Translations under genes and position numbers: made by a program
The notes under the pieces: model-generated
Seen by the model: the letters and a program-made list of their open reading frames with translations, nothing else
What the model was told of the DNA's origin: nothing
Database searches by the model: none
In this document: in pieces, positions 31,685-48,429 of the stretch
Position numbering within the stretch: position 1 is the first letter of the stretch
How the letters are laid out: each line of letters begins with the position of its first letter
Source of the DNA: Desulfoferula mesophila
Lineage (GTDB): Bacteria; Desulfobacterota; Desulfarculia; Desulfarculales; Desulfarculaceae
Reading direction: 5' to 3'
Assembly: GCF_037076455.1 (NCBI RefSeq)
Contig: NZ_AP028679.1
Span: 1,317,501-1,381,500, forward strand
DNA length: 64,000 nt

Positions 31685-31707
31685 TCCACTCCGTTTCGCA
31701 GCCATAT

Positions 31708-31743
31708 CCCGGCGGGCTGGGCAACCACGCCCCGCCCGCCGGG
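31708..31743 (+). other. GC hairpin after binding-protein gene of operon 2
   Basis: CCCGGCGGGC (31708-31717) pairs with GCCCGCCGGG (31734-31743) around a 16-nt loop, followed by a T-rich stretch (about 31745-31762). It could act as a partial terminator or an mRNA-stabilising end between the binding-protein and permease genes. Confidence 0.55.
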
Positions 31744-31782
31744 GTCTAATCTTCTTTTTCGCTTGCTCCTCACGAGGTTTCC

Positions 31783-32676
31783 ATGGATACGGCAAGCCAC
31801 ATAACCCTGGCCGCCTTGGGGCAACAGTTGCTGGTGGGGCTCAGCCGCACCACCATCTTGTTCATCGTAAGCTCCGGGCTCAGCCTTATCCTGGGAGTGC
31901 TCAGGATACCCAACGTGTCCCACGGCTCGTTGTACATGATCGGGGCCTTTGTCACCTATTCGGTGGCCACCTTCATCGGCGGCCAGACCGGCTTCTGGGT
32001 GGCTTTGGCCGTGGCCCCGGTGGCGGTGGGGCTGTTGGCCCTGGCCGTGGAGCGCGGCATATTCTGCCACCTCTACGAGCGGGAGCACCTCATGCTCCTG
32101 CTGTTCACCTTTTCGCTCATGCTGGTGCTGGGCGATCTGGTCAAGATGACCTGGGGCTCGGACTACCGTTCCCTGTCCGCTCCGCCCATGATGCAGGGCT
32201 CCTTCTCCCTGGGGGGCATGCCCTTTCCCCGCTACAACCTGTTTCTGCTGATCATGGGCCCCTTGGTGGCCCTGGGCCTGTGGGCCCTGACCAACAAGAC
32301 CAAGATCGGCAAGATAGCCCGGGCCGCGGCGGTGGACCGGGAGATGGTGGCGGCCATGGGCATCAACGTGAGCTGGGTCTTCGCCTTCGTGTTCTGCCTG
32401 GGCTGTCTCATGGCCGGCCTGGGCGGCGCCCTGGTGGCCCCCACCCAGAACATCACCCAGGGCATGGACCACGCCATTATCATGGAGGCCTTCCTCATCG
32501 TTATCATCGGCGGCCTGGGCAACATGTGGGGGGCCTTGTTGGGCGCGGCCATCTTCGGGATCACCGACTCCATCGGCATCCTGGTGTGGCCCCAGTTCGC
32601 CATCGTCTTTCCCTACGTGGCGGTGACCATCGTGCTCGTGTTCCGGCCCAAGGGCCTGCTCAAGAGCACCTGGTAA
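31783..32676 (+). CDS. livH: Branched-chain-type ABC transporter permease (LivH-like, operon 2)
   Basis: 297 residues. It is LivH-like by its opening QLLVGLSRTTILFIVSSGL, SLILGVLRIPNVSHGSLYM, and the C-terminal FRPKGLLKSTW. About eight membrane segments. It pairs with the next gene's product and lies 98 bp after the binding-protein gene, separated by a hairpin. Confidence 0.9.
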   Translation: MDTASHITLAALGQQLLVGLSRTTILFIVSSGLSLILGVLRIPNVSHGSLYMIGAFVTYSVATFIGGQTGFWVALAVAPVAVGLLALAVERGIFCHLYEREHLMLLLFTFSLMLVLGDLVKMTWGSDYRSLSAPPMMQGSFSLGGMPFPRYNLFLLIMGPLVALGLWALTNKTKIGKIARAAAVDREMVAAMGINVSWVFAFVFCLGCLMAGLGGALVAPTQNITQGMDHAIIMEAFLIVIIGGLGNMWGALLGAAIFGITDSIGILVWPQFAIVFPYVAVTIVLVFRPKGLLKSTW

Positions 32677-32689
32677 GGGGAGGGCGATC

Positions 32690-33646
32690 GTGCAAAACCA
32701 AAAGTTGATAAGCTCGCGCAGCCTGATCCTGATGGCGGTGCTGTTGGCCGCCCTGGCCCTGTTTCCCAGCGTGGCCAGCCGCTACTACATCTACCTGGCG
32801 GCCCTCATGCTGGTCACCGGGCTGCTGGCCAGCAGCCTGAACATGGTGCTGGGCTTCGGGGGCATGTACCAGTTCAACCACGCCGTGTTCTACGGGGTGG
32901 GGGCCTATGCCGCGGCCCTGCTCACGGTGCGCGGCGGGGTGAGCCCCTGGTGGGGCTATCTGGTGGGCCCCCTGGCCGCCGCCTTGCTCAGCCTGATCAT
33001 GGGCATCATCTGCGTGCGCCTGAGCAAGCTCTACTTCGGCATGCTGCAAATTTCCCTGGGCAGCCTGGTGTGGGCCGTGGTGTTCCGCTGGTATTCCTTC
33101 ACCGGCGGCGACGACGGCCTGCACGGCGTGCCGGTGCCCCGGCTCATCAGCTCCGGCGAGGGGGCCTACTACTTCGTGCTCATCGTCAGCGTTCTCTGCC
33201 TGGCGCTCATGTACCTCATCGTCAACTCCCCCTTCGGCCGGGTGTTCATGAGCATCCGCGACAACCCGGAGCGGGCCGAGGCCATCGGGGTCAACGTGCG
33301 CCTGCACCAGCTCATCGGCCTGGTCATCGCCGGGTTCTTCGGGGGGGTGGCGGGCACCCTGTTCGTCACCGTGGAGGGCACCGTCTTTCCGGACATGCTC
33401 TTTTGGACCCTGTCGCTGGAAATCATCATCATGTGCCTGTTGGGCGGCTGGTTCACCTTCTTGGGGCCCATGCTGGGCGGGGCCATGGTGGTGGCCTTGC
33501 GCGCGGTGGTGGGCACCTACACCGACTATTGGACCATGGTGCTGGGCATCATCCTCATGCTGCTGATCTTCTTCCTGCCCGAGGGGGTGTTGGGCTTCTT
33601 CCTGGCCCGCCTGGGGCGCGGCCGGACCGCCAGGGAGGAGAACTGA
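32690..33646 (+). CDS. livM: Branched-chain-type ABC transporter permease (LivM-like, operon 2)
   Basis: 318 residues. Features are LLASSLNMVLGFGGMYQFNHAVFYGVG near the N-terminus, LRLSKLYFGMLQISLGSLVW-type central helices (written VRLSKLYF here), and the coupling loop SIRDNPERAEAIGVNVRLH. It starts at GTG 32690 with GGGGAGGG about seven bases upstream. The stop is 1 bp before livG. Confidence 0.9.
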   Translation: MQNQKLISSRSLILMAVLLAALALFPSVASRYYIYLAALMLVTGLLASSLNMVLGFGGMYQFNHAVFYGVGAYAAALLTVRGGVSPWWGYLVGPLAAALLSLIMGIICVRLSKLYFGMLQISLGSLVWAVVFRWYSFTGGDDGLHGVPVPRLISSGEGAYYFVLIVSVLCLALMYLIVNSPFGRVFMSIRDNPERAEAIGVNVRLHQLIGLVIAGFFGGVAGTLFVTVEGTVFPDMLFWTLSLEIIIMCLLGGWFTFLGPMLGGAMVVALRAVVGTYTDYWTMVLGIILMLLIFFLPEGVLGFFLARLGRGRTAREEN

Positions 33647-33647
33647 C

Positions 33648-34391
33648 ATGCTCTCGGTGCAAGGACTGCGCAAATCCTTTGGCCCCTTTTTGGCGGTGTC
33701 CGACGCCAACCTGACGGTGGCCAAGGGCGAGGTGGTGGCGGTGATCGGGCCCAACGGGGCGGGCAAGACCACCCTGTTCAAGCTCATCACCGGGCAGCTG
33801 AAGCCGGACCGGGGCCAGGTGATGTTCAAGGGCGAGGACATAGCGGGCCTGAGCCCCCACCGGATATGCCGCCGGGGGCTGAGCCTCTCCTACCAGGTGG
33901 TGAGCGTCTTCCCGCGCATGAGCGTTTTTGAAAACGTGCGGGTGGCGGTGCTGGCCCGCAAGCGCCAGGTGCTGCGCCTGTTCACCCCGGCGGTGCGCCT
34001 GGCCAACGAGGAAACCTGGGAGATACTAAGCAACGTGGGCCTGGCCGACAAGGCCGAGGTGATCAGCGGCACCCTGTCCCACGGGGACAGCAAGGTGCTG
34101 GAGATGGCCATCGCCCTGGGCAACCGGCCCGAGCTACTCATCATGGACGAGCCCACCGCGGGCATGAGCCCCGAGGAAACCCGCGCGGCTAAGGCCCTTA
34201 TCCAGCGGCTCAACGGCGAGCTGGGCATCACCATACTTTTCTGCGAGCACGACATGGAACTGGTGTTCAACCTGGCCCAGCGCATCATGGTCATGCGCCA
34301 GGGCGAAACCATCGCCCAGGGCACCTGCGACGAGGTCCGCTGCGACGAAAAGGTGCAGCAGGCCTACCTGGGAGGCCAGGGCGATGCTTGA
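33648..34391 (+). CDS. livG: Branched-chain-type ABC transporter ATP-binding protein (LivG-like, operon 2)
   Basis: 247 residues. Walker A GPNGAGKTTLFKLIT is near residue 37; the signature region LSHGDSKVLEMAIALGNRPE is the LivG variant of LSGGQ; Walker B is LLIMDEPTAGMSPEE; the switch His is in FCEHDMELV. It overlaps livF by 8 bp. It forms the ATPase pair with LivF. Confidence 0.92.
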   Translation: MLSVQGLRKSFGPFLAVSDANLTVAKGEVVAVIGPNGAGKTTLFKLITGQLKPDRGQVMFKGEDIAGLSPHRICRRGLSLSYQVVSVFPRMSVFENVRVAVLARKRQVLRLFTPAVRLANEETWEILSNVGLADKAEVISGTLSHGDSKVLEMAIALGNRPELLIMDEPTAGMSPEETRAAKALIQRLNGELGITILFCEHDMELVFNLAQRIMVMRQGETIAQGTCDEVRCDEKVQQAYLGGQGDA

Positions 34392-35082
34392 GCTAAAGGG
34401 CGTGCATACCTACTACGGCCTGAGCCACATCCTTTTCGACGTGAGCCTCACCGTGGAGCGCGGCGAGGTGGTATGCCTGTTGGGGCGCAACGGGGCGGGC
34501 AAGAGCACCACCATGCGCTCCATCATGGGCCTCACTCCGCCCAAGCGCGGCAGCATCGTGTTCAAGGGCCAGGACATCACCACCATGAAGCCGCATCTCA
34601 GGGCCCGCCAGGGGCTGGGCTACGTGCCCGACGACCGCCGGGTCTTCGCCGACCTCACCGTGGGGGAAAATCTGGAAATAGTGGCCCGTCCCTCGGGAAG
34701 CTCCGAAACCTGGGACAAGGAGCGCGTCTACCGCTTCTTCCCGCCTCTGGCCGCCATAGACGGACGCCAGGCCGGGTTCCTCAGCGGCGGGGAACAGCAG
34801 ATGCTCACCATCGGCCGGGCCCTGATGACCAATCCCGACTTTTTGCTTTTGGACGAGCCCACCGAGGGCCTGGCCCCCTTGGTGGTCAAGATGTTGGCGG
34901 ATCAAATAGAGAGTCTTAAGCAGACCGGGCTGACCGTGCTTTTGGCCGAACAGAACCAGGAAGTGGCTCTAGGGCTGGCTGACCGAGGCTACATCATTGA
35001 CAACGGAGTGATACGCTACTCCGGCACCATCGAAGACTTGCGGGCCGACGAGGAAGTGCGCAAACGCTACCTCATGGTCTGA
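34384..35082 (+). CDS. livF: Branched-chain-type ABC transporter ATP-binding protein (LivF-like, operon 2)
   Basis: 232 residues. Walker A is GRNGAGKSTTMRSIMG, the Q-loop region is YVPDDRRVFADLTVGENL, the signature is LSGGEQQMLTIGRAL and Walker B is FLLLDEPTEGLAP. It is the last transporter gene of operon 2. The histidine kinase gene follows after 58 bp without a visible terminator, so some read-through into the regulatory genes is possible. Confidence 0.92.
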   Translation: MLELKGVHTYYGLSHILFDVSLTVERGEVVCLLGRNGAGKSTTMRSIMGLTPPKRGSIVFKGQDITTMKPHLRARQGLGYVPDDRRVFADLTVGENLEIVARPSGSSETWDKERVYRFFPPLAAIDGRQAGFLSGGEQQMLTIGRALMTNPDFLLLDEPTEGLAPLVVKMLADQIESLKQTGLTVLLAEQNQEVALGLADRGYIIDNGVIRYSGTIEDLRADEEVRKRYLMV

Positions 35083-35140: not shown

Positions 35141-36988
35141 ATGAAACTCAAATCCTCGGTTTTCTACAAACTGCTGCTTTTCATCCTGCCCCTGGTGGTG
35201 CTGCCCACCGCGGTGGTGGGCTACTATTCCATCCAGGCCTCGGTGGAGCGGGTGAACCGCCTGGTGCGCCAGGAGCAGATGGTGCAGGTGGAGGCGGCGG
35301 CCAAGAAAATCGACGACGTGCTGCATTCCTGCCGCATCGACCTGACCACCATCACCGGACTGCCCCTGATCGAGGACTACAACCTGGCCCGCTCCTTCCG
35401 CCTCAAGGCCGAGGCCGGCTTCAACCGCGACAACATCGTGCGCCTGTTCCAGGACTTTCTGGCCCGCACCCCCTTCTACTGGCAGCTGCGCTACGTGGAC
35501 GCCGCGGGCAGGGAGCTCATCAAGGTGCGCCGGGGGCAAAAAGACCCTTCCCTGGGGCAAGCTGAGGCTTCCCTGCTGGCCGCGGCGCGCGGCCCGCTGT
35601 CCGGCGGGGCCTATTTTTCGGCCTTGCAGCAGAATCCGGAGCTGGGCGGGCTGGTCATGCACTGCGCCAGACCCACGGACAGCCCCTGGCACCAATTCAC
35701 CGGCCTGGTGATCATAGACCTGGACTTCTCGCGCATTACCGAGATGGTGCGGACCATCAAGGTGGGCCAGCGGGGCTACGCCTTCTTGCTCAATCAAGAG
35801 GGCCGCAGCATCGCCCATCCCCACGCCCGCCCCTATGAGCTGGGGCCCGAGGCGGGGCCGGACAGCCTGCGCCACCTGGTGGCCGACATGGTCTCCGGCA
35901 ACACCGGCTGGCGCACCTACCGCTTCCAGGGCGAGGAAAAGGTAGCCGCCTTCGCCCCTATCCCCACCCTGCGCTGGTCGGTGGCCGCCACCATTCCGGT
36001 GAAGGAGTTTCGCCAGGAGGCCGACGCCATCCAGGACCGGGTGATCCAGGTGATGGTCATCGCCCTGATCCTGGCGGTCACCGGCGTGAGCATCCTCTCC
36101 TACAACCTGCTCAAGCCGGTGCGCAGCCTGGCCGCGGCCACCGAGCGCCTGGCCGCCGGCCAATCGGCCGAGGAGTTGCCGGTCACCTCCCGCGACGAGC
36201 TGGGCGAGCTGACCCGGGCCTTCAACCGCATGAACCGCAACCTGGAGCGCACCCAGGCCGAGCTGGTGCGCAGCGAAAAGCTGGTCTCCCTGGGGCGGCT
36301 CAGCGCCGGGGTGGCCCACGAGATCAGAAACCCCCTGAGCGCCATGCAGGGGGCCATGGTGCACCTGCAGCGGCGGCGGGCCGACGACCCCCTGATAAGC
36401 GAGTACGGCAAGATCGTCTGCGAGGAGATCGAGCGCCTGAACCGCTTTGTCACCGAGTTTCTCTACTTCGCCCGCCAGGCCCCGCCTCAGCCGGTGCCCA
36501 CCGATCTCAACGGCCTGGTCAAGTCGGTGCAGGCCCTGTTTAGGGCCGAGGCGGAAAAGCGCGAAATACGTTTTCACGACCTGTTGGACGAAACCCTGCC
36601 CCTGGTGCTCTTGGACCCCCACCAGATGGAGCAGGTCCTGGTCAACCTGCTGATCAACGCCATGGACGCCCTGCCCGCCGAGGGGGGATACATCACCTTC
36701 TCCACCACCTGGCAGCGTCCCCTGCCCGGGGTGGAGGGGCAGGTGCGCCTGGCGGTGGAGGACAGCGGCTCGGGCATCACCCCGGAGCAGCAGGCCAGCA
36801 TCTTCGATCCCTTCTTTACCACCAAGGACGCGGGTACCGGCCTGGGGCTCACCCTGAGCCTGGGCATCGTGCAGGGCCACGGCGGCGAGTTGGAAGTGCG
36901 CAGCCGCCCGGGCCACGGAACCACGGTTATAATAAAATTACCCTATAGGCCCGCGGCCCAGCCGGACCGGGAGGAACTCGTTGGATAG
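35141..36988 (+). CDS. Membrane sensor histidine kinase with periplasmic Cache-type domain
   Basis: 615 residues. Membrane helices at about 8-30 and 300-322 enclose a large periplasmic double-Cache-like domain (for example FYWQLRYVDAAGRELIKVRR and GYAFLLNQEGRSIAHPHARP). A HAMP linker follows, then HisKA with His393 in GVAHEIRNPLSAM, and a HATPase (NLLINAMDA, DSGSGITP, GTGLGLTLSLG). It is the NtrB/DctB-type partner of the sigma-54 response regulator that overlaps it by 8 bp. Cache domains often bind small acids or amino acids directly; here a co-encoded periplasmic binding protein may take part. Confidence 0.93.
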   Translation: MKLKSSVFYKLLLFILPLVVLPTAVVGYYSIQASVERVNRLVRQEQMVQVEAAAKKIDDVLHSCRIDLTTITGLPLIEDYNLARSFRLKAEAGFNRDNIVRLFQDFLARTPFYWQLRYVDAAGRELIKVRRGQKDPSLGQAEASLLAAARGPLSGGAYFSALQQNPELGGLVMHCARPTDSPWHQFTGLVIIDLDFSRITEMVRTIKVGQRGYAFLLNQEGRSIAHPHARPYELGPEAGPDSLRHLVADMVSGNTGWRTYRFQGEEKVAAFAPIPTLRWSVAATIPVKEFRQEADAIQDRVIQVMVIALILAVTGVSILSYNLLKPVRSLAAATERLAAGQSAEELPVTSRDELGELTRAFNRMNRNLERTQAELVRSEKLVSLGRLSAGVAHEIRNPLSAMQGAMVHLQRRRADDPLISEYGKIVCEEIERLNRFVTEFLYFARQAPPQPVPTDLNGLVKSVQALFRAEAEKREIRFHDLLDETLPLVLLDPHQMEQVLVNLLINAMDALPAEGGYITFSTTWQRPLPGVEGQVRLAVEDSGSGITPEQQASIFDPFFTTKDAGTGLGLTLSLGIVQGHGGELEVRSRPGHGTTVIIKLPYRPAAQPDREELVG

Positions 36989-38369
36989 CCCCCGCAAGAT
37001 ATTGGTGGTGGATGATCGCATCAACGCCCTCAAGGTACTCATGGCCATCCTGGCCGACGAGGGCTATGAGGTGCTCACGGCCACCAGCGGGGAGGAGGCC
37101 CTGGACCAATACCATTCCCATCCGGACCTGGACGTGGTGCTGGCCGACCTTAAGATGCCGGCCATGAACGGCCTGGACCTGTTCCGGCGCATGAGCTATG
37201 AGAGCGACGCCCCGCCTTTTGTCATCATGACCGCCCACGCCACGGCCCGCTCGGCGGTGGAGGCCCTCAAGCAGGGGGTGGCCGACTACCTGTTCAAGCC
37301 CCTGGACTACGAGGAGCTGTCCATTGTCCTGGACAAGGCCATACGCCAGCGGCGCATGTCCCGGGAGCTGGCCACCCTGCGACGCCGGGTGGAGGCCGAG
37401 GGCTCCTTCCACGGCATCATCGGCACCAGCCCGGTCATGGCCAAGGTGTTCGACCTGGTGCGCACCGTGGGCCCCACCGACGCCTCGGTGCTCATTCACG
37501 GCGAGACCGGTACCGGCAAGGAGCTGCTGGCCCGGGCCCTGCACGCCGAGAGCCCCCGGACGACCGGGCCCCTGGTGTGCATCAACTGCGCCGCCCTCAC
37601 CGAGTCGCTTTTGGAGGGCGAGCTGTTCGGCTACGTGAAGGGGGCCTTCACCGGGGCCGCCGGTGACAAGAAAGGCCGCCTGGAGCTGGCCGACGGGGGC
37701 ACCCTGTTCCTGGACGAGATCGGCCATATGAGCCTGGCCCTGCAGGCCAAGCTGCTGCGCTTTTTGCAGGAGCGCACCTTCGAGCCGGTGGGAGGCAACA
37801 CCCCCCGGCGGGTGGACGTGCGCCTGCTTGCCGCCACCAATCAGGACTTGAAGCAGCAGATCGAAAAAGGCAAGTTCCTGGGCGACCTGGTTTATCGCAT
37901 CGAGGTGATCGGCCTGGACCTGCCGCCCTTGCGTCAGCGCGGCGAGGACATCCCCCTGTTGGTGGAGTATTTCGTGGACCGCATGTCCCAGCGCTACTCC
38001 AAGCCGGTGCTGGGGGTCAGTTCGCGGGCCATGCAGGCCTTGATGGAGCACCCCTGGCCGGGCAACGTGCGCCAGTTGGAAAACGTGGTGGCCCGGGCGG
38101 TGATCCTCTCCAAGGGCCAGCGCCTGGGCCTGGAGGACTTCTCGGACCTTTTGGGGGAGGAGGAGGCCGCCGAATCGCCGGACGGGGGCATCATCAGCGG
38201 CCTGCCCGAGGAGGGGGCCACCATCAAGGACATGGAGCGCGAGCTCATCGAAAAGACCCTGGCCCAGTGCGGGGGCAACAAGAGCCAGGCCGCCAAGCGC
38301 CTGGGCATCTCCCGCAAGGGGCTCTATGAAAAACTGGAGCGTTATGGCCTGGCCGAGAGTCAGGACTAG
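36981..38369 (+). CDS. Sigma-54-dependent response regulator (NtrC/DctD-type)
   Basis: 462 residues. Receiver domain with phosphoacceptor Asp56 (VLADLKMPAMNG) and Lys in YLFKPLDY; AAA+ domain with Walker A GETGTGKELLARALH (about 174), GYVKGAFTGA (about 217-226), Walker B GTLFLDEIGHM; C-terminal Fis helix-turn-helix (GGNKSQAAKRLGISRKGLYE). The start is TTG 36981, supported by GGAGGAA eight bases upstream and by the start of the receiver domain. It probably acts at the sigma-54 promoter at 39846 through the GTTACC dyads. It overlaps the next gene by about 26 bp. Confidence 0.93.
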   Translation: MDSPRKILVVDDRINALKVLMAILADEGYEVLTATSGEEALDQYHSHPDLDVVLADLKMPAMNGLDLFRRMSYESDAPPFVIMTAHATARSAVEALKQGVADYLFKPLDYEELSIVLDKAIRQRRMSRELATLRRRVEAEGSFHGIIGTSPVMAKVFDLVRTVGPTDASVLIHGETGTGKELLARALHAESPRTTGPLVCINCAALTESLLEGELFGYVKGAFTGAAGDKKGRLELADGGTLFLDEIGHMSLALQAKLLRFLQERTFEPVGGNTPRRVDVRLLAATNQDLKQQIEKGKFLGDLVYRIEVIGLDLPPLRQRGEDIPLLVEYFVDRMSQRYSKPVLGVSSRAMQALMEHPWPGNVRQLENVVARAVILSKGQRLGLEDFSDLLGEEEAAESPDGGIISGLPEEGATIKDMERELIEKTLAQCGGNKSQAAKRLGISRKGLYEKLERYGLAESQD

Positions 38370-39630
38370 GGCCGCGCTGCTGCTGCTGGCCGGGCTGTGG
38401 TGCCTGGCCGGGGCGGCGTGGGCCGCTCCCGCCTCCGAGCCCGGCGAGATCGTGCTGGGGGTGCCCACCAGCCTCACCCTGCTGGAAGGCCGCGAGAGCC
38501 TCATGGCGGTGCGTCTGGCCGTGGAGGAGATCAACGCGGCGGGCGGGGTGCGCCTGGGCCCGCGGCGCCTGCCCCTCAAGGTGCTTCCCCACGACCTGCG
38601 GGGGGCCGCCCTGGGCGTGGCGGTGGAAGACGCGGTGGCCTCCCTGGGCGGCTTCCTGCAAAATCCCCGGCTCAACGCCCTGGTGGTGGGGCCTTTCCGC
38701 TCCGAGGTGCTGCTCAACTCCCTGGACCTGCTGGCCCGCCGCAAGATCCCCCTCTTGGGCACCATCGCCATGACCCCGGCCTCGGAGGCCATGGTGCTCA
38801 AGAACCCGGCCTACGCCAACCTCTTCCGGGTGAGCCTCAACACCAGCTACCTGGTGGATTACCTCACCAGCAGCATGCGTTTTCTGGAGGAGCGCTTCGG
38901 CTTCAAGCGGGTGTACATCCTCAACCAGGACGTGGCTTGGGCTCGCACCACCGCCTCCAGGATGATCCGCCTGTTCTTCCGCCGGGCGGGCTGGCAGGTG
39001 TTGGGCCAGAAAAGCTTCCCCAGCGGGGCGGGGGATTTCTCCCAGGCCCTGGAAGAGGCGCGGGCCCAAAAAGCCCAGGTGCTGCTGTGCATCTTCGATT
39101 CGCCCCACAGCGGCCGTCTGGCCCGCCAATGGCGGCGGCTCAAGGTGCCGGCCCTGCTCTGCGGTTTCGTCTCCCCCCTGGTGGGTTCCGAGGCCTGGCA
39201 AGCTTACCGGGGCCAGGTGGCGGGCAGCCTCAACGTGATCTTCGAGCTGGGCAACCTGCCCAGCCGCCGCTATCCCCCGGCCACGGCCTTTTACCGGGCC
39301 TTTCAGCGCCGCTGGGGGCGGGAGGTCCAGTCGGGCCACGGCCCGGCGCCCTCCTACGAGTCGGTGTACATCCTGGCCAATGCCATGGAGCGGGCCGGCA
39401 GCTTGGAACCCGCCGCCCTGGTCAAGGCCCTGGAGGCCACCGACCGCCGGGGCTGCATGGGCCGGGTGCGTTTCCACCCCGACCATCAGGCTTATTTCGG
39501 CCAAGACCCCCAGCGCGAGGCCCTGGCCGCGGTGATCCAATGGACCCCCCAAGGCGCCCGGCGCATCGTGTTCCCTCCGGCCATCGCCGAAGGAGATATT
39601 GAACTGCCCGCCTTTGTGCCCATGCCCTAG
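38344..39630 (+). CDS. Orphan LivK-like solute-binding protein co-encoded with the kinase/regulator pair
   Basis: 428 residues. Signal peptide about 1-27 (ALLLLAGLWCLAGAAWA). It is a close paralogue of the binding protein at 39974: shared blocks include ALVVGPFRSE, IPLLGTIAM versus VPLLGTIAM, LNQDVAWAR versus MNQDVAWAR, NVIFELGNLPS versus NAIFELGNIPS, and GHGPAPSY. ATG 38344 is chosen (GGAG four bases upstream), inside the 3' end of the regulator gene; ATG 38326 is also in frame. With no permease directly attached, it may deliver ligand to the shared transporter or act as periplasmic co-sensor for the kinase. Confidence 0.9.
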   Translation: MAWPRVRTRAALLLLAGLWCLAGAAWAAPASEPGEIVLGVPTSLTLLEGRESLMAVRLAVEEINAAGGVRLGPRRLPLKVLPHDLRGAALGVAVEDAVASLGGFLQNPRLNALVVGPFRSEVLLNSLDLLARRKIPLLGTIAMTPASEAMVLKNPAYANLFRVSLNTSYLVDYLTSSMRFLEERFGFKRVYILNQDVAWARTTASRMIRLFFRRAGWQVLGQKSFPSGAGDFSQALEEARAQKAQVLLCIFDSPHSGRLARQWRRLKVPALLCGFVSPLVGSEAWQAYRGQVAGSLNVIFELGNLPSRRYPPATAFYRAFQRRWGREVQSGHGPAPSYESVYILANAMERAGSLEPAALVKALEATDRRGCMGRVRFHPDHQAYFGQDPQREALAAVIQWTPQGARRIVFPPAIAEGDIELPAFVPMP

Positions 39631-39662
39631 CTGTTACCATTCGACACAATCGCCTGGTTTCC

Positions 39663-39677
39663 GTTACCAATGGTAAC
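39663..39677. promoter_or_regulatory. GTTACC-N3-GGTAAC dyad (site 1)
   Basis: Perfect inverted repeat GTTACC / GGTAAC with a 3-bp spacer (AAT). It is centred about 202 bp upstream of the predicted sigma-54 start and identical in its arms to site 2. Candidate enhancer for the sigma-54 response regulator at 36981-38369. Confidence 0.6.
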
Positions 39678-39752
39678 TACCCCCCTTAACATCTCGGAAA
39701 TCGCGACGAAATAGCTTCACGCCCGGTGAAAGCCCTCCTAGGGGCGGCTTTT

Positions 39753-39771
39753 GTGTTACCCCGGGTAACAC
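39753..39771. promoter_or_regulatory. GTTACC-N3-GGTAAC dyad (site 2), extended
   Basis: GTGTTACCC (39753-39761) and GGGTAACAC (39763-39771) are perfect arms around one base; the core is GTTACC-CCG-GGTAAC at 39755-39769. It is centred about 110 bp upstream of the predicted start and 92 bp from site 1. Candidate enhancer. Confidence 0.65.
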
Positions 39772-39845
39772 CAACGGCATGGTCCGTTTTACTGTATTCG
39801 TAATAAACATATAAATATCTGTAAGTTACCCGGATAGCGACTGGT

Positions 39846-39861
39846 TGGACCACAACTTGCA
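39846..39861 (+). promoter_or_regulatory. Sigma-54 (-24/-12) promoter of transport operon 3
   Basis: TGGACC, five bases, then TTGCA; GG (39847-39848) and GC (39859-39860) are separated by exactly ten bases. Predicted start near 39872. A sigma-54 response regulator is encoded just upstream and its likely binding dyads lie at 39663-39771. Confidence 0.75.
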
Positions 39862-39973: not shown

Positions 39974-41245
39974 ATGAGGAAGTTGACCTGCTTGACGGCC
40001 GTCGCCCTGCTCCTGACCGCCTTGTTCCTGGCGCCGACCGGGGCCTTGGCGGCGGACAAAATCGTTATCGGGGTACCCACCTCCTTGAACTTCTTGGAAG
40101 GCAAGGAAGCCAACAACTCGGTCAAATTGGCCGTGGATGAGATCAACAAGGCGGGCGGGGTCAAGGTGGGCGGCAAGATGCTGCCCTTCGTGGTGGAATC
40201 CATCGACATCCGCGACGCCGCGCCCGGCGTGCCGGTGCCCGAGGCCCTGTTGGGCATTGAAAAACTGATCCTGGAGAAAAAGCCCAACGCCCTGGTAGTG
40301 GGTCCCTTCCGCTCCGAGGCCCTGTTGGCGGGCATGGACATGCTGGCCAAGCACAAGGTGCCTCTGTTGGGCACCATCGCCATGAGCCCCAAGACCGAGG
40401 CCAAGGTGGCCAGCGACCCCAAGTATAAGTACGTGTTCCGCGTCTCCCTGGACGCCAAGTACTTCGTGGGCTACATCGCAGGCGTCATGGGCTTTTTGGG
40501 CAAGGAGTTCGGCTTCAACAAGGTGTTCATCATGAACCAGGACGTGGCCTGGGCCCGGGCCACCGCGGGTATCATGACCAAGATTTTCGAGGGCAAGCTG
40601 AAGTGGAAGGTGGTGGGCCATGAGACCTTCCCCACCGGCGCCAGCGACTTCGCCCCGGCCCTGATGAAGGCCAAAATGGCCGGCGCCCAGGTGATCATGC
40701 CGGTGTTCGACATGCCCCAAAGCGGCATCCTGGTCAAGCAGTGGAAGGCCATGAAGGTCCCGGCCCTGATGGCCGGCTTCATCAGCCCCCTCACCGGCCC
40801 CGGCGCCTGGAAGACCTTTGACGGCAAGATCGGCGGCGCGCTCAACGCCATCTTCGAGTTGGGCAACATCCCCAGCGCCAAGTACCCGCCCTCCAAGAAG
40901 TACTATGACGCCTACCAGGCCAAGTACGGCGTGCCCCTGGAGGCCGGTCACGGCCCGGCCCCGTCCTATGCCTCGGTGTACCTGCTCAAGGCGGCCATCG
41001 AGAAGGCGGGCTCTCTGGACCCGGACGCCATCGTGGCCGCCCTCAAGGCCACCGACGCCCAGGGGGTGATGGGTCACATAAAGTTCAGCAAGGGCAACCA
41101 GCTCATCTACGGCAACGATCCCCAGAAGGAAGCCCTGGGCTGCTTCTTCCAGTGGACCGACGACGGCAAGCGGCTCATCGTCTATCCCCCGGCCATCGCC
41201 GAGGGCACGATCAAGCTGCCCGCCGGGATGAAGGCGGCCAAGTAG
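39974..41245 (+). CDS. LivK-like substrate-binding protein (operon 3)
   Basis: 423 residues. Signal peptide about 1-26 (cleavage after ALA). Mature start KIVIGVPTSLNFLEGKEANN. It is the transporter-linked twin of the binding protein at 38344-39630, near-collinear over its whole length. GGGGAGGA lies just before the ATG. The permease, ATPase and acyl-CoA ligase genes that follow suggest that the ligand is a carboxylic acid to be CoA-activated after uptake; this is inference from context. Confidence 0.93.
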   Translation: MRKLTCLTAVALLLTALFLAPTGALAADKIVIGVPTSLNFLEGKEANNSVKLAVDEINKAGGVKVGGKMLPFVVESIDIRDAAPGVPVPEALLGIEKLILEKKPNALVVGPFRSEALLAGMDMLAKHKVPLLGTIAMSPKTEAKVASDPKYKYVFRVSLDAKYFVGYIAGVMGFLGKEFGFNKVFIMNQDVAWARATAGIMTKIFEGKLKWKVVGHETFPTGASDFAPALMKAKMAGAQVIMPVFDMPQSGILVKQWKAMKVPALMAGFISPLTGPGAWKTFDGKIGGALNAIFELGNIPSAKYPPSKKYYDAYQAKYGVPLEAGHGPAPSYASVYLLKAAIEKAGSLDPDAIVAALKATDAQGVMGHIKFSKGNQLIYGNDPQKEALGCFFQWTDDGKRLIVYPPAIAEGTIKLPAGMKAAK

Positions 41246-41353: not shown

Positions 41354-42226
41354 ATGCTTGAAGGCACCCTGATATACGGCTTCATCAACAGCGTCATCCT
41401 GATGCTGGTGGCCCTGGGCTTCTCGGTCACCTTTGGCATCAGCGGAGTGGCCAACTTCGCCTACGGCGCTCTCTACATCATGACCGGCTACCTTTCCTGG
41501 CTGGGGCTGCACTCCCTGGGCCTGCCCTATTGGGTGGCGGCCCCGCTGGCGGTGGTGGTCACGGGGGCGGTGGCGGCCATGATCTACTGGTTCATCCTGC
41601 TCAGGGTGCGCGGCCTGGTGGTCAGCGAGGTCATCGCCACCTTCGGCGTGGGCCTGGCCATCCTGGAGCTGTTCCGCTCCCTGGGCTTCATCGGCTTCGA
41701 GTACACCCTGCCGCCCATCATCGACGCCTCGGTGATGATCGGCGACACCTACGTGGACGCCCAGCGGCTGTGCATCGTGGCCACCGGCATCCTGCTGGCC
41801 GCCTTCCTGTGGTTCTTCACCCACTACACCAAGACCGGCCTGGCCTTCAGGGGCATCGCCCAGGACGAGCGCACCGCCCTGACCCTGGGCATCAACGGCG
41901 ACAAGGTGGCCGCCTTGTCCGTGGCCTTTGGCGCGGGTTACGGGGCCCTGGCCGCCCTGGTCATCCTGCCCCTGGGCACCATCGCGGTCAACGAGGGCTA
42001 CAACGTGCTGGTCAACGCCCTGGCGGTGTGCATCGTGGGCGGCCTGGGCAGCACGGTGGGCATCATCGTGGCCAGCTTCCTGATCGGCTTCGCCCAGATA
42101 CTTACCTCCACCTACCTGGAGACGAGCTGGATGATGATCGTCAGCCTAGTGGCCATCCTGGCCATTTTGGTGATCAAGCCCTCGGGGCTCTTTGGCCACC
42201 AAAAGCAGCTTGAGGAGCGCATCTGA
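41354..42226 (+). CDS. livH: Branched-chain-type ABC transporter permease (LivH-like, operon 3)
   Basis: 290 residues. It has the LivH pattern: YGFINSVILMLVALGFSVTF at the start, GVANFAYGALYIMTGYLSW, and the C-terminal IKPSGLFGH. About eight membrane segments. The stop overlaps the livM start by one base (TGATG). Confidence 0.92.
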   Translation: MLEGTLIYGFINSVILMLVALGFSVTFGISGVANFAYGALYIMTGYLSWLGLHSLGLPYWVAAPLAVVVTGAVAAMIYWFILLRVRGLVVSEVIATFGVGLAILELFRSLGFIGFEYTLPPIIDASVMIGDTYVDAQRLCIVATGILLAAFLWFFTHYTKTGLAFRGIAQDERTALTLGINGDKVAALSVAFGAGYGALAALVILPLGTIAVNEGYNVLVNALAVCIVGGLGSTVGIIVASFLIGFAQILTSTYLETSWMMIVSLVAILAILVIKPSGLFGHQKQLEERI

Positions 42227-43230
42227 TGGCACAACGCAAAGAGCGCATAGACCGGGGGATCAAGGTCCGCAGCGACGATGTGTTCGTCCTCACCTCCTGG
42301 CGCGAAATGCTCTACCTGGCCGCCCCCCGGGTGGTGCCGGTGGTGGCCCTGTTCGTGCTGGGCCTGGTGGCCGGGCCCTATTGGGAGCGGGTGCTGATAT
42401 CGACCTGTATGTTCGCCCTGCTGGCCATAAGCTGGGACCTGCTCAATTCCGCGGGCATGGTCTCCCTGGGCCAGGCCCTGTTCTTCGGGGTGGGGGCCTA
42501 CATCGCGGGCACCCTGAATCACTACCTGGGCCTGCCGCCGGGGCTCACCATCCCCATCGCCACCCTGGGCGGGGGCGTGCTGTGCACCGTGGCCCTGTTG
42601 CCGGTGCTGCGCCTCCGGGGCATCTACTTCGCCATGGTCACCCTGATCCTGCCCATGATGATCGAGCGGGTGATCGAGGCCACCAAGATCTTCGGGGGCA
42701 CCGAGGGCATCAGCGGGCTGAGCACCCTGGGCAGCAACAACCTGGAGTTCTGGCTGGCCGCGGTGGCGGTGTTCGTGGCCCTGTTCGGCTTCCGGCGCAT
42801 GATGGGCACCGACTACGGCCTGTTGCTCAAGGGCATCAGCGACAACGACCGGGCGGTGATGAGCGCGGGCATGAACATCTACCACTACAAGGCCCAGGCC
42901 CTGTTCATGTCCTCGGCGGTGGGGGCCTTTGCCGGGGCCTTCATGACCCACGCCTACCAGTTCGTGGGCATGCCGGTTTTCGCCCTGGACTACTCCATGA
43001 TCCCCATCGCCTCGGTGGCGGTGGGCGGCATGGGCACCCTGGCCGGCCCCATGCTGGGCAGCTTTATCCTGGTGCCCCTGTCCGAGCTTCTGCGCGGGCT
43101 GGGAGGCCTCAGGGTGGTGATCTACGCGGTGATACTGGTGGTGTTCACGGTGGGGCTGCCGGAGGGGATTTTCCACTACCTGTCGCGCAAGTACAACCAG
43201 TTTGAGCGCTGGGTGGGGGTGGAACGATGA
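42226..43230 (+). CDS. livM: Branched-chain-type ABC transporter permease (LivM-like, operon 3)
   Basis: 334 residues, with a basic N-terminal tail (QRKERIDRGIKVRSDDVF) before the first helix. LivM features: ISWDLLNSAGMVSLGQALFF, LRLRGIYFAMVTLILPMMIE and the coupling loop GISDNDRAVMSAGMNIYHYK. It overlaps livH by 1 bp and livG by 4 bp. Confidence 0.92.
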   Translation: MAQRKERIDRGIKVRSDDVFVLTSWREMLYLAAPRVVPVVALFVLGLVAGPYWERVLISTCMFALLAISWDLLNSAGMVSLGQALFFGVGAYIAGTLNHYLGLPPGLTIPIATLGGGVLCTVALLPVLRLRGIYFAMVTLILPMMIERVIEATKIFGGTEGISGLSTLGSNNLEFWLAAVAVFVALFGFRRMMGTDYGLLLKGISDNDRAVMSAGMNIYHYKAQALFMSSAVGAFAGAFMTHAYQFVGMPVFALDYSMIPIASVAVGGMGTLAGPMLGSFILVPLSELLRGLGGLRVVIYAVILVVFTVGLPEGIFHYLSRKYNQFERWVGVER

Positions 43231-43991
43231 ATAACAACCAAGAAATAATTTTGCAGGCGGAGAACCTGTCGCGCTACTTCGGCGGGGTAAAGGCGGTGGA
43301 CGGGGTGAGCTTCAGCCTTCGGCGCAACGAGGTGCTGGGGGTCATCGGCCCCAACGGCTCGGGCAAGACCACCCTGGCCAACCTGCTCACCGGTTTCGTC
43401 AAGCCCAGCAAGGGCAAGGTCATCTTCGAGGGCAACGACATCACCGGTTCGCCGCCCTACAAGGTGGCCGATCTGGGTATCGCCCGCTCCTTCCAGATGG
43501 TTAAACCCTTTTATCAGCTTCCGGCCTTCAAGAACCTCAACGTGGCCCTGCTTTCTCCCCGGGTGCGCCGCCTGGCCGGCGGCCGCTACGGCGACCGCGA
43601 CGCCATGGCCAAGGACCTGTTGGAGGAGGTGGGCTTCGAGCGGGACTCCTGGGTCATCTCCCACCAGGCGGCCAGCCTGCCCCACGGATATCTCAAGCGG
43701 CTGGAGCTGGCCAAGTGCATGGCCCTGCAGCCCGAGGTGATCGTCCTGGACGAGCTTTTCTCGGGCCTGTCGTTGGCCGAGGTGGCCTCCCTGGTGCCGG
43801 TGATCGAAAAGCTGGTGCACCAAGGCAAGACCCTGGTGATGATCGAACACCGGCTCAAGGAGCTGTTCCGCATCGCCGACCGGGTCATCGTATTGAACTT
43901 CGGCCAGAAGATCGCCGAGGGCGAGCCCGCCCAGGTGATGGAAGATCCCCAGGTCAAGGGCGCCTATCTGGGCAGCGAGGCGGAGGAGTAA
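43227..43991 (+). CDS. livG: Branched-chain-type ABC transporter ATP-binding protein (LivG-like, operon 3)
   Basis: 254 residues. Walker A GPNGSGKTTLANLLTG; signature region LPHGYLKRLELAKCM, again the LivG-type divergent form; Walker B VIVLDELFSGLSLAE, where Leu-Phe stands in place of the usual Pro-Thr or Pro-Ser after the catalytic Glu; switch His in IEHRLKELF. ATG overlaps the livM stop. Confidence 0.9.
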   Translation: MNNNQEIILQAENLSRYFGGVKAVDGVSFSLRRNEVLGVIGPNGSGKTTLANLLTGFVKPSKGKVIFEGNDITGSPPYKVADLGIARSFQMVKPFYQLPAFKNLNVALLSPRVRRLAGGRYGDRDAMAKDLLEEVGFERDSWVISHQAASLPHGYLKRLELAKCMALQPEVIVLDELFSGLSLAEVASLVPVIEKLVHQGKTLVMIEHRLKELFRIADRVIVLNFGQKIAEGEPAQVMEDPQVKGAYLGSEAEE

Positions 43992-43993
43992 AC

Positions 43994-44740
43994 GTGCTTA
44001 CGGTCAAGGACCTAATCGTCTTCTACGAAAACGCCATCGCGGTCAACGACCTGTCCATGGAGGTGCGCGAAGGCCAGATAGTGGGGGTCATCGGCTCCAA
44101 CAGCGCGGGCAAGACCACCCTCATGAACACCCTGAGCGGCCTGATCTGGGACATGTTGATTAAGGAGAAGCGCCGGGGCGGCGAGCGCATCACCGTCATG
44201 GGCGAGGTTTCGTTCATGGGCGAGGACATCAGCAAGCTGCCGGCCTATCGCCGGGCTCAAGCGGGCATCGTCCTGTGCCGGGAGCGCCATCCCATCTTCC
44301 CGGACTCCACGGTGGTGGAGAACTTGAAGATCGCGGGCTATCTGCGCACCTGGGCCGACGTGAAAAAGGGCGTGGAGCTGAGCTTCGACCTGTTCCCCAA
44401 CCTTAAGCGGCATAGCAAGCGCAAGGCCGGCTTCCTCTCCGGCGGCGAGCAGCAGATGCTGGCCATCGGCATGGCCATGATGGTGGGGCCCAAGCTGCTG
44501 CTGTTGGACGAGCCCCTGTTAGGGCTCAGCCCGGCCATGCAGAACCAGGTGGTGGGGGCCATCAAGGACGTGCGGCGCCACACCGGGGTCACTTTGGTGA
44601 TCGCCGAGCAGTTCGCTCGTCCCCTGTTGCCCTGGCTGGATTTCACCTACGTCATCGAGAACGGGATGCTCACCCTCACCGGGCCGGGGCCCGAGCTGAT
44701 GGACAACCCCGAGATCAAAAGCGCCTACTTCGGCGTCTAA
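43994..44740 (+). CDS. livF: Branched-chain-type ABC transporter ATP-binding protein (LivF-like, operon 3)
   Basis: 248 residues, slightly longer than usual LivF because of an insertion after Walker A (GSNSAGKTTLMNTLSGL, then the charged DMLIKEKRRGGERITVMGEV). The Q-loop-side segment reads LCRERHPIFPDSTVVENL where most LivF have VPEGR. Signature LSGGEQQMLAIGMAM and Walker B LLLLDEPLLGLSP are normal. GTG 43994 is chosen, with GGAGGAG five bases upstream. It probably works with LivG of the same operon; the unusual segment may alter coupling. Confidence 0.88.
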   Translation: MLTVKDLIVFYENAIAVNDLSMEVREGQIVGVIGSNSAGKTTLMNTLSGLIWDMLIKEKRRGGERITVMGEVSFMGEDISKLPAYRRAQAGIVLCRERHPIFPDSTVVENLKIAGYLRTWADVKKGVELSFDLFPNLKRHSKRKAGFLSGGEQQMLAIGMAMMVGPKLLLLDEPLLGLSPAMQNQVVGAIKDVRRHTGVTLVIAEQFARPLLPWLDFTYVIENGMLTLTGPGPELMDNPEIKSAYFGV

Positions 44741-44753: not shown

Positions 44754-46391
44754 ATGCAGCTGGTGGAATTCACCAACATACCCCAGACCTTCGACAGGGT
44801 AGTCGCGCTCAACCCCAATAAAACGGCGGCCTGGTATCTGGGCACCGCCTTCACCTACGCCCGCCTCAAGCAAATGGCCGACAGCTTCGCTGCCGGGCTC
44901 GTCAAGCGGGGGGTGGGGCCCCAGTCGCGGGTGATGCTGTATCTGCCCAACAGCGTGCAGTGGCTCATCGCATGGCTGGGCGTGCAAAAGGCCGGGGCGG
45001 TGGCCGTGCCTATCACCCCCATCTACACCCCCTTCGACGTGGCCTATATCGCCGGGGACACCGAGGCGGACGCCATCGTGTGCAGCGACCGCAACTACGG
45101 CTACGTCAAAAAAGTGCGCAAGGAGCACCCCTTCAAGACGGTGGTGGTCTCGGGCATGACCGACGTGTTGCCCGGCTACAAGCGCTTCTTCGGTTGGGCC
45201 TTTGACAAGGTGCCCAAGGGCCGGGTGGGCCGGGGAGCCGAGGGCACGGTGCTCTTGACCGATCTGATGAAGGAGGGGGGCCAACCCCCAGCGGCCGAGG
45301 CCGACCCTGACGCCATCGCCGAGATCATCTACACCGGCGGCACCACCCGTCACCCCAAGGGGGTGCCCATCACTCACCGCCTGTTGTTGGAGTGCGCCGA
45401 CGAGCAGATATCCACCAGCGCGGCCCTGTTCGAGGTGCAAGACAACATGGTGCTGGGCTCGGCCCCCTTGTTCCACATCCTGGGTCAGACCACAGCCCTG
45501 GGCACGGTGTTGGTGCACGGCGGCACCATCATCCTGCAACCCAAGGTCAACCTGGACGCCATGATGCACGCGGTGACCACCCACAAGGCCACCACCTTCG
45601 TGGGGGTGCCCGCCCTGTACCGCATGATCCTGGAGCACGACCGCCTGGATCAATACGATCTCAGTTCCCTGAAATACTGCTTCTGCGGCGGCGACGTGCT
45701 GCCCCAGGACGTGGCCAACCGCTGGCTGGAGCGCTTCGGCTGGCCCATCTACATCGGCTACGGGGCCAGCGAGACGGTGGGCGGAGTGGCCATGAGCCCG
45801 GCCGACCGTCCCAATCCCGCGGGTTCCATGGGCCTGGTGCTGCCCTCCAAGGAGATACGCATCGTGGACCCGGCCTTCCTTACCCCGGTGGAGCCGGGGG
45901 AGCCGGGCGAGATGCTGGTGCACTCGGACCCCATGGTCAGTTCCTACTGGAACAAGCCCAAGGAGACCTCCGAGGCCTTTGTGGAACTGGACGGCAAGCT
46001 GTTCTACCGCACCGCCGACGTGGTGCGCCAGGACGAGCAGGGCTATCTGTATTTCGTGGACCGCACCGTGGACACCATCAAGCACAAGGGCTACCGGGTC
46101 AGCGCCTCGGAGATCGAGTGCGTGCTGCAAGACCACCAGGCGGTGGTGGCTTCGTGCGTGGTGGGCATCCCCGACGAAAAGGTGGGCGAGCGCATCAAGG
46201 CCTACGTGGTGCTCAAAAAGGACATCAAGGGCATCACCGGCTACGACCTCATCGCCTTTTGCCGCAAGCGCCTGGCCGGCTACAAGGTGCCGCAATACAT
46301 CGAATTCCGCGACATGCTGCCCAAGTCCAAGGTGGGCAAGCTGCTCAGGCGCGACATTCGCGGCGAGGAAGCCTCGCGCCGCGCGGGCTAA
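44754..46391 (+). CDS. AMP-forming acyl-CoA ligase (1)
   Basis: 545 residues of the ANL superfamily. The A3 motif is IYTGGTTRHPKGVPITHR, with Arg at the position that is normally Gly; A5 is IGYGASETVGG; the hinge is YFVDRTVDTIKHKGYRVSASEIE; the catalytic lysine of the C-terminal domain is in KSKVGKLLRRD. It activates a carboxylic acid to its CoA thioester (ATP to AMP plus PPi). It lies 13 bp after livF, so it is probably co-transcribed with transporter 3 and activates its cargo. The substrate (fatty, branched or aromatic acid) cannot be read. Confidence 0.88.
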   Translation: MQLVEFTNIPQTFDRVVALNPNKTAAWYLGTAFTYARLKQMADSFAAGLVKRGVGPQSRVMLYLPNSVQWLIAWLGVQKAGAVAVPITPIYTPFDVAYIAGDTEADAIVCSDRNYGYVKKVRKEHPFKTVVVSGMTDVLPGYKRFFGWAFDKVPKGRVGRGAEGTVLLTDLMKEGGQPPAAEADPDAIAEIIYTGGTTRHPKGVPITHRLLLECADEQISTSAALFEVQDNMVLGSAPLFHILGQTTALGTVLVHGGTIILQPKVNLDAMMHAVTTHKATTFVGVPALYRMILEHDRLDQYDLSSLKYCFCGGDVLPQDVANRWLERFGWPIYIGYGASETVGGVAMSPADRPNPAGSMGLVLPSKEIRIVDPAFLTPVEPGEPGEMLVHSDPMVSSYWNKPKETSEAFVELDGKLFYRTADVVRQDEQGYLYFVDRTVDTIKHKGYRVSASEIECVLQDHQAVVASCVVGIPDEKVGERIKAYVVLKKDIKGITGYDLIAFCRKRLAGYKVPQYIEFRDMLPKSKVGKLLRRDIRGEEASRRAG

Positions 46392-46495: not shown

Positions 46496-46708
46496 ATGCC
46501 ATCCCCGCCCCTGGCCGCCAATGCCGGACAAAGCTCTGCCCCCATGGGGCGGACCAGGCGCGGCCCAAGTTCTGCGGAACGCTGGCTCGCGCCAAGGGGC
46601 GGGGAGTTCCGGGAGACACCCAGCACGCTTCAGCACGATTTCTCCACCAAGCACAGACCCCTCTACCACCTCCGGGGCGGCGACATCAATTATCGGAGGA
46701 TCGGCTAA
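46496..46708 (+). CDS. Possible 70-residue leader peptide, doubtful
   Basis: An open frame begins at the ATG that corresponds to the tetR start in the duplicated promoter unit and ends with TAA overlapping the ATG of acyl-CoA ligase 2 (TAATG). The first residues MPS match TetR, but the rest (Pro/Arg/Ser-rich) resembles no family I know. It may be a translated leader that couples to the ligase, or simply a remnant of the duplication. Confidence 0.3.
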   Translation: MPSPPLAANAGQSSAPMGRTRRGPSSAERWLAPRGGEFRETPSTLQHDFSTKHRPLYHLRGGDINYRRIG

Positions 46709-48264
46709 TGGACGACATCTGCACCCTGCGCACGGTCGTGGACCGCAACCTGGAATACAACCCGCGAAAAACCGCCCTGATCGAAGGCGACCGGCAATAT
46801 TCCTTCCTGGAGTTCGCCCGGCGCACCCGCGCCATGGGCAACGCCCTGCTGGACTTGGGGCTGAGCAAGGGCGATCGGGTGGCGATTCTGAGCAAGAACA
46901 GCATGGAGAACGCGGAGTCCTATTTCAGCATCCCCAACGCCGGCCTGGTCCTGGTGATGCTCAACTTCCGCCTGGCAGCGCGGGAGATTCTCACCATCCT
47001 GGACGATGCCCGCGCTTCGGTTCTGCTGGTGAACCATGAGTTCATGGGGCAGGTGGAGCAGATTCGGGGGGAGCTGGATTTCGTTAAAAGGTTCGTCTTC
47101 ATAGGCCCGCGCGATGCGACCCCCGCCGGATGGTTGCACTACGAAGCCATGATCGAGGCGGCTTCCTCCGAGGTGCCGCCCACCGAGCTGCGCGAAACCG
47201 ACCTGGCCGCCCTCATGTACACCAGCGGCACCACCGGTTCGCCCAAGGGCTGCATGGCCACCCACCGCAATTTCTATCACGTGGGCCGCAGCCTCACCCT
47301 GGAGCTGCGCATGACCCGGGACGACGTGGGCATCATCGCCTCGCCCCTTTTCCATGCCACCGGCGAGGTGGTGCTGATGAACGGCATGTACAGCGGCACC
47401 ACCTCAGTGATCATGCCCCAGTGGGACGCTGCCCAGTTCCTGGCCCTGGTGGAAAAACACAAGGTGACCACCGGCATGCTGGCCACGCCCATGCTGCTGT
47501 TCCTCCTCGAGAGTCCGGAGGTGGATAACTACGACCACAGCAGCCTGCAAAAGGTCTTTTTCGCGGGGGCTCCGGTGACCCCGGTGGTTTTCCAGCGGGC
47601 CATAGAGCGCTTCGGCAACGTGTGGGTGCATCTTTTCGGCACCACGGAAACCGTGGGCCAGACCACCATCCTCAAGACCGAGGACATCGCCGATGCCCTG
47701 GCCACGGGAAACACGGAAATACTGGGTTCCTGCGGGCGCTCCTTCGCCGACATGCAGAGCATGGTGGTGGATGGCGACGACCGTCCGGTGGCGCCCGGCG
47801 AAGTGGGCGAAATGAAGGTGCGCGGCCTGGGCACCACCCTGGGTTACTGGAACAAGCCGGACGAGACGCGCAACGATTTCCGCAACGGGGCCTACTACTC
47901 CCAAGACCTGTGCCGGGTGGACGAGCAGGGCTTCATCTACGTGGTGGACCGCAAAAAGGATATGATCATCACCGGCGGGGAAAACGTCTACCCGGCCGAG
48001 GTGGAGAACGTGCTGTACAAGCACCCCAGCGTGTCCATGGCGGCGGTCATCGGAACCCCGGATGAAAGATGGGGCGAGGTGGTTACGGCCATGGTGGTCA
48101 AAAAGACCGAACAGAATTTGGAGGCGGAGGACGTCAAGGTCTTCCTGCGCGGAGAAATCGCGGGCTACAAGGTGCCCAAGATCGTGCTGTTCGTGGATTC
48201 GCTGCCCATGAGCGCCAGCGGCAAGATCTTGAAGTTCAAGCTGCGCACGGAGCTTTGTGCCTGA
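46708..48264 (+). CDS. AMP-forming acyl-CoA ligase (2)
   Basis: 518 residues. The A3 motif LMYTSGTTGSPKGCMATH is canonical; A5 is HLFGTTETVGQTT; the hinge is YVVDRKKDMIITGGENVYPAEVE; the C-terminal lysine is in SASGKILKFKLR. It is a medium- or long-chain or aryl acyl-CoA ligase by general type; substrate unknown. ATG 46708 is chosen: it has TCGGAGGA about eight bases upstream and starts at the conserved N-terminal helix, while the longer open frame upstream is low in protein character. It is controlled by P1/O1 and so probably by the adjacent TetR. Confidence 0.9.
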   Translation: MDDICTLRTVVDRNLEYNPRKTALIEGDRQYSFLEFARRTRAMGNALLDLGLSKGDRVAILSKNSMENAESYFSIPNAGLVLVMLNFRLAAREILTILDDARASVLLVNHEFMGQVEQIRGELDFVKRFVFIGPRDATPAGWLHYEAMIEAASSEVPPTELRETDLAALMYTSGTTGSPKGCMATHRNFYHVGRSLTLELRMTRDDVGIIASPLFHATGEVVLMNGMYSGTTSVIMPQWDAAQFLALVEKHKVTTGMLATPMLLFLLESPEVDNYDHSSLQKVFFAGAPVTPVVFQRAIERFGNVWVHLFGTTETVGQTTILKTEDIADALATGNTEILGSCGRSFADMQSMVVDGDDRPVAPGEVGEMKVRGLGTTLGYWNKPDETRNDFRNGAYYSQDLCRVDEQGFIYVVDRKKDMIITGGENVYPAEVENVLYKHPSVSMAAVIGTPDERWGEVVTAMVVKKTEQNLEAEDVKVFLRGEIAGYKVPKIVLFVDSLPMSASGKILKFKLRTELCA

Positions 48265-48418: not shown

Positions 48419-48429
48419 TGCCAAAACAA

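Follow-up and report, generated by a model that had tools for sequence, protein, structure and literature searches.

Repeated GTTACC-N3-GGTAAC dyads ahead of a sigma-54 promoter raise the question of which protein reads them, and which genes it controls through them. A preliminary description of the 64-kb window analyzed here (the whole stretch of DNA, from a single-contig genome of 4.48 Mb) had predicted that they are binding sites of the neighbouring sigma-54 regulator. Comparison across genomes strongly supported this prediction, as array and promoter were found to follow the orthologues of the regulator across families within the phylum, and the array stays with its target operon where it is inverted and is practically absent elsewhere. 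Coordinates below are those of the window, and other genomes and loci are given by handle (G and L numbers) where they have to be told apart.

Genes surrounding the array

Three genes precede the array on the forward strand: a sensor histidine kinase (35141–36988; Pfam dCache_1 sensor domain, HAMP, HisKA and HATPase), an NtrC-family response regulator that we propose as the array-binding protein (36981–38369) and a solute-binding protein with a Peripla_BP_6 domain, SBP1, a proposed periplasmic sensor (38326–39630). The regulator gene overlaps the kinase gene and SBP1 overlaps the regulator gene, and because of these end-to-start overlaps the three probably form a single operon. The array had been described as lying directly downstream of the regulator gene, which is not the case, since SBP1 intervenes. 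An orthologue of the kinase adjoins the regulator gene at every locus fetched. A second branched-chain-type SBP-ABC operon was observed directly 5' of the kinase gene (30470–35082); it lies outside the conserved unit, as its ATPase genes are absent from that place in G001 and G002.

The target operon, also on the forward strand, starts with a second Peripla_BP_6 protein, SBP2 (39974–41245), orthologues of which are found 3' of the array in other genomes. It continues with a branched-chain-type ABC transporter block of conserved gene order (41354–44740), comprising two permeases (41354–42226 and 42226–43230; Pfam BPD_transp_2) and two ATPases, the first at 43227–43991 (Pfam ABC_tran/BCA_ABC_TP_C) and the second, conserved in order, at about 43988–44740. 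The conserved final gene encodes an AMP-forming acyl-CoA ligase identified by Pfam (44754–46391), with orthologues in place. Beyond it lie a second ligase (46702–48264) and, beside the ligase genes, a gene for a TetR-family protein (48406–49050).

The regulator has the domains of an NtrC-family response regulator, with a receiver, an AAA+ sigma-54 interaction domain and a Fis-type HTH (PF00072, PF00158, PF25601 and PF02954, all above cut-off); its nearest NCBIfam models are AtoC, ZraR and NtrC, all below their cut-offs. The sigma-54-contacting loop reads GAFTGA in 18 of 19 regulator orthologues, the window protein included, and GSFTGA in G008. In all 19 the recognition segment LGISRK[GAS]LY is invariant, paralleling the constancy of the operators. 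SBP1 and SBP2 are ~53% identical in the window and separate across genomes with 100/100 support, which dates their duplication as old. SBP1 is thus a dedicated solute-binding protein, encoded with the kinase and regulator and distinct from that of the transporter, and by analogy with the CuaDSR system discussed below it is likely to be the periplasmic sensor of the system.

The sigma-54 promoter

The GG-N10-GC promoter reported previously is present, with GG at 39847–39848 and GC at 39859–39860. The full element, TTGGACCACAACTTGCA (39845–39861, forward strand), has near-consensus -24 and -12 elements and predicts a transcription start near 39872. Fourteen of the 15 anchored loci have GG-N10-GC in the corresponding place; G053, the exception, has GT for GC. 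A pattern scan gave no competing sigma-70-like match, and the genome has rpoN, as judged from one match to the RpoN DNA-binding domain.

We considered a structured 5' leader and rejected it, because the leader folds no better than its shuffles (z -0.29) and has no Rfam match. Between 39875 and 39930 the leader contains CACCCC...GGGGTGG and, behind it, a T run, a feature that is conserved only as far as the closest relatives.

An array of three operators

Both full 15-bp dyads of the preliminary description were recovered, GTTACCAATGGTAAC at 39663–39677 and GTTACCCCGGGTAAC at 39755–39769, with centres 92 bp apart. When the intergenic region was dinucleotide-shuffled 500 times, no shuffle reached this 92-bp pair (0 mismatches compared with a mean of 11.2). 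Two GTTACC half-sites had also been proposed, at 39633 and 39825; the letters are there, yet neither is a half-site of the array. The one at 39633 belongs to a complete, asymmetric operator, TGTTACCATTCGACACA (39632–39648), whereas that at 39825 shows no conservation in orthologues and overlaps the IHF-like element described below. We therefore rejected the latter as a fourth operator, and a three-site enhancer is a better description of the DNA than two dyads and two half-sites.

An alignment of 30 sites gave a conserved unit of 17 bp, YGTTACC-N3-RGTNACA, the outer frame of which belongs to the TGT-N11-ACA class. G, T, A and C are invariant at positions 2, 3, 5 and 6, as is C at position 16, the left half of this consensus being partly circular because sites were chosen partly by those letters. 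All three operators of the window read on the forward strand. Operator 1 (score 19.9) is a poor inverted repeat; its position, -214 from GG, is conserved in orthologues, which read TGTTACCTTTGCACACA and similar. Operator 2, CGTTACCAATGGTAACT (39662–39678), an exact dyad with a score of 21.2, follows 30 bp further on, and 92 bp past it lies operator 3, TGTTACCCCGGGTAACA (39754–39770), also an exact dyad and a TGT-N11-ACA palindrome, with a score of 17.6. With a symmetric matrix, which was trained on a single genus and partly on these same three sites, the window had three matches scoring at least 9, at 39632, 39662 and 39754, the next best reaching 8.5.

A weak terminator-like hairpin with a T-rich tail was picked up by pattern scan between operators 2 and 3 (39732–39753, forward strand), at about shuffle level, and possibly marks the end of the kinase-regulator-SBP1 transcript. 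A conserved hairpin in this spacer was rejected, folding being ordinary in most loci.

Conservation of the array across regulator orthologues

Ten genomes of the class have an orthologue of the regulator, at 55–94% identity and in the same gene order, the next paralogues being ~49% identical or less. In these ten genomes the region between SBP1 and SBP2 contains operator-like sites followed by the GG-N10-GC promoter (with the GT ending in G053). A wider search extended the set of orthologues to further families within the phylum, at 56–64% identity. Across the 19 regulator-orthologue loci, window included, the triad layout is present in 14, with regulator identity down to 56% and some sites weak, among them operators of G001, G006, G010 and G015; those of G001 and G006 were placed partly by eye. 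Three of the remaining five loci are partial: G053 has two sites and lacks operator 1, the second copy in G108 also has two, and only operator 3 is strong in G008. No array was found near the regulator in the other G108 copy (L078), and none was seen in G138 up to the end of the contig, which comes too early.

The geometry is uneven and conserved, with 29–31 bp between operators 1 and 2, 88–92 or 102–104 bp between operators 2 and 3, and ~85–105 bp from there to GG. The second distance is 91–92 bp in the genus, 92 bp in G053, which belongs to another family and itself has two exact dyads, and 88 bp in G109, compared with 102–104 bp in G010, G015, G240, G380 and G325, so that about one helical turn separates the two spacing classes. 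When a spacing spectrum was computed over ten orthologous loci, the window locus left out, 92 bp stood out as the minimum (sum 62, against a mean of 95.5 with sd 6.3), and a second minimum lay at 122 bp, or 30 + 92, these loci being non-independent draws. The genus-trained matrix also located three operators before a sigma-54 promoter in G240, G380, G325 and G109, all outside its training set and with regulators 56–62% identical.

The ABC genes of G067 run divergently from the kinase gene. Here the array sits in the region between the two and is inverted along with the ABC genes, with spacings of 30 and 92 bp and GG 88 bp past operator 3. G109 lacks SBP1 and has the array directly 3' of the regulator gene, which indicates that the array is independent of SBP1 and belongs to the regulator.

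Several further observations were made at these loci. At L074 (G067:C161), ~121 bp 3' of the reverse-strand sigma-54 promoter, SBP2 is replaced by an open frame of 42 codons, the start of which resembles a signal peptide and the end of which, KIQLPTWIKK, is similar to the C-terminus of SBP2, as would follow from loss of the middle part of the gene; given this apparent remnant, SBP1 may also serve transport in G067. At L075 (G240) and L076 (G380), ~1.85 kb past the regulator gene, array and promoter precede an orthologue of the second ligase (75% identity), which stands in place of SBP2 and the ABC genes. This arrangement suggests that the second ligase of the window acts in the same pathway. 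L033 has ~250 extra bases between the SBP1 stop codon and operator 1, with inverted-repeat ends CCCGGATATTTCATGAAGG ... CCTTCATGAAATATCCGGG; the insert resembles a small mobile element, and the array 3' of it is intact.

Specificity of the array

The 15-bp motif had been put forward as one that could be searched for genome-wide, and such a search returned two exact matches in the 4.48 Mb, both in this array, while its reversed control gave none. With two mismatches allowed, the dyad had 65 matches compared with 174 for the reversed control and so was not enriched, and a relaxed consensus added one isolated site at genomic position 1647537, outside the window. A wider regulon was rejected on these grounds, and neither search revealed an apparent second target in the genome. 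As strong sites are restricted to one locus, the regulator is predicted to control a single operon in this genome.

Among 84,980 species genomes, the pattern of two dyads 92 bp apart had seven matches, four of which are this locus in relatives; the relatives fetched with a name are Desulfarculus and Desulfarculaceae metagenome assemblies. The other three, L051 (Oscillospiraceae), L053 and L055 (Cetobacterium), have no homologous genes alongside and were set aside as unrelated repeats or chance, that of L053 sitting in a GTTAC-rich repeat. The three-site pattern had five matches in 395 genomes of the phylum, the window locus and four loci of regulator orthologues, and its reversed control had none. 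Together, these searches mark the array as a private signature of the regulator's locus.

An IHF-like element between enhancer and promoter

Within an AT-rich hump between operator 3 and the promoter we identified an IHF-like element, TATCTGTAAGTTA (39816–39828, forward strand), with one mismatch to WATCARNNNNTTR. It overlaps the GTTACC letters at 39825. At the level of sequence, WATCARNNNNTTR keeps a conserved register between enhancer and promoter, -29 to -34 from GG across loci, with 0–2 mismatches in most orthologues. Over 15 loci in register, the mismatches total 26 compared with a shuffle mean of 54.2, and none of 2000 shuffles was as low, a statistic that is somewhat overstated because the shuffles preserve composition and not relatedness. 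G015, G109 and others match poorly in the common register. Several IHF/HU-family genes are present in the genome. The IHF consensus and the usual enhancer-IHF-promoter order have been described, and IHF sites are common between the enhancer and the promoter of RpoN promoters (PMC7962754).

Alternative explanations

The dyads might instead be operators through which another regulator represses the operon. One candidate is the TetR-family protein of 48406–49050: TetR proteins bind short palindromes, and this gene lies beside the ligase genes. Only G000, G005 and G004 have the TetR gene close to the array, however, and none is found in the fetched flanks of G001, G006, G002, G010, G008 and G325, all of which have operators, whereas the kinase-regulator pair is always present. 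Three sites spread from ~100 to ~240 bp ahead of a sigma-54 start would also be an unusual placement for a repressor, and we regard this explanation as improbable. Still less probable is that the inverted repeats are termination or RNA elements ending the kinase-regulator-SBP1 transcript. Such a role would fit an array that begins 2 bp past the SBP1 stop codon and the weak hairpin between operators 2 and 3, but no T runs lie behind the dyads, operator 1 is a poor inverted repeat and Rfam gave no match. The arrays of G067, upstream of the kinase gene in a divergent region and inverted with the ABC genes, and of G109, after the regulator gene in the absence of SBP1, argue against it as well. Chance palindromes would agree with the lack of enrichment of the two-mismatch dyad, but exact dyads are found in this place alone, and the conservation of sites, spacing and position across families and independent lineages leaves chance a negligible probability.

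A variant compatible with the core of the regulator-bound enhancer is that the regulator binds the triad with no IHF-type bend, 39816–39828 being merely flexible or upstream-promoter DNA and looping spontaneous. The mismatch in the window element, the poor matches of G015, G109 and others and an enhancer-promoter distance that permits looping all speak for this variant; the in-register match over the 15 loci, far beyond shuffles, and the frequency of IHF sites at this place in RpoN promoters (PMC7962754) speak against it. We consider it quite possible, although not the version to be expected.

Proposed mechanism and its meaning

The locus has what an enhancer array for an enhancer-binding protein calls for: repeated operators at conserved spacing, upstream of the promoter and linked to the regulator gene. 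The comparisons point to a regulator that binds the triad, probably with IHF-assisted looping, and activates sigma-54 transcription of the SBP-ABC-ligase operon, a reading to which we assign a probability of about 0.9. In the proposed sequence of events, dimers of the phosphorylated regulator, encoded 1.3 kb upstream, would bind the three 17-bp operators, whose centres lie at about -232, -202 and -110 relative to the predicted start. As a hexamer can be made up from three dimers, the triad may be a scaffold for assembly. A bend at the IHF-like element would then deliver the complete AAA+ ring to sigma-54 RNA polymerase at 39845–39861, and ATP hydrolysis would open the promoter and switch on the operon of SBP2, the ABC importer and the ligase. 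Sensing of the putative substrate would fall to the kinase, alone or together with the co-encoded SBP1. The operators and the promoter, with their spacing, conservation and linkage to this regulator, come directly from the sequence comparisons; binding, dependence on phosphorylation, the IHF bend, the hexamer scaffold and substrate sensing are predicted steps.

A more specific version is offered tentatively, at somewhat under an even chance: a sigma-54 three-component system in which SBP1, an ancient paralogue of SBP2, would be the periplasmic receptor of the kinase, and the regulator would assemble on a helically phased three-operator scaffold, the uneven spacing of which is kept throughout the phylum. 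The genes so induced would import the very substrate that is sensed and activate it with CoA.

For an uncharacterised two-component system of the little-studied relatives of Desulfarculus, these analyses provide a concrete assignment of regulator, operator and target that can be tested. The uneven triad, the change of spacing by one helical turn and the inversion of the intact array with its target genes make up a natural experiment on three-dimer assembly at a distance, and the co-encoded SBP1 hints at which periplasmic protein reads the substrate.

Comparison with known systems

In enteric bacteria, NtrC enhancer sites are dyads upstream of a sigma-54 promoter that are bound by the phosphorylated NtrC-family regulator, with the consensus TGCACC-N5-GGTGCA and a spacer of about 5 bp. 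The ACC/GGT core of the half-site is similar here, but the half-site is GTTACC and the spacer 3 bp, and the operators are not NtrC sites.

According to PMC2941729, which cites Tucker et al. (2010), NorR of E. coli has three enhancer sites at norVW, three dimers fit one hexamer and the enhancer DNA acts as a scaffold. The likeness is that three sites upstream of a sigma-54 promoter serve an activating AAA+ enhancer-binding protein. In contrast to NorR, a one-component NO sensor with a GAF domain, the regulator here contains a receiver domain and is paired with a kinase; the operator sequences are unlike, and scaffolding is in our case proposed.

In the CuaDSR system of Ruminiclostridium cellulolyticum, a second solute-binding protein encoded beside the two-component system acts as a sensor (PMC10384115). 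Both systems have such a protein distinct from that of the transporter, and an ABC operon as target; CuaDSR, however, is a cellobiose system of a Firmicute, whereas the regulator here is of the sigma-54 type and contact between SBP1 and the kinase is inferred.

For the enhancer-binding proteins of Desulfovibrio vulgaris Hildenborough, the main text of PMC4641369 describes common motif groups in which TGT and ACA half-sites are separated by 9, 11 or 12 bp, regulons that mostly comprise one to four operons and the sigma-54 consensus tGGcacg and tTGCt. Those are likewise Fis-type HTH regulators of sulfate reducers, and the TGT-N11-ACA frame falls within one of the classes given there; neither GTTAC nor 'branched-chain amino acid' occurs in that main text, which therefore does not include the present operator or operon. 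The system reported here is of an ordinary kind; its geometry is unusually well conserved, and its operator is newly assigned.
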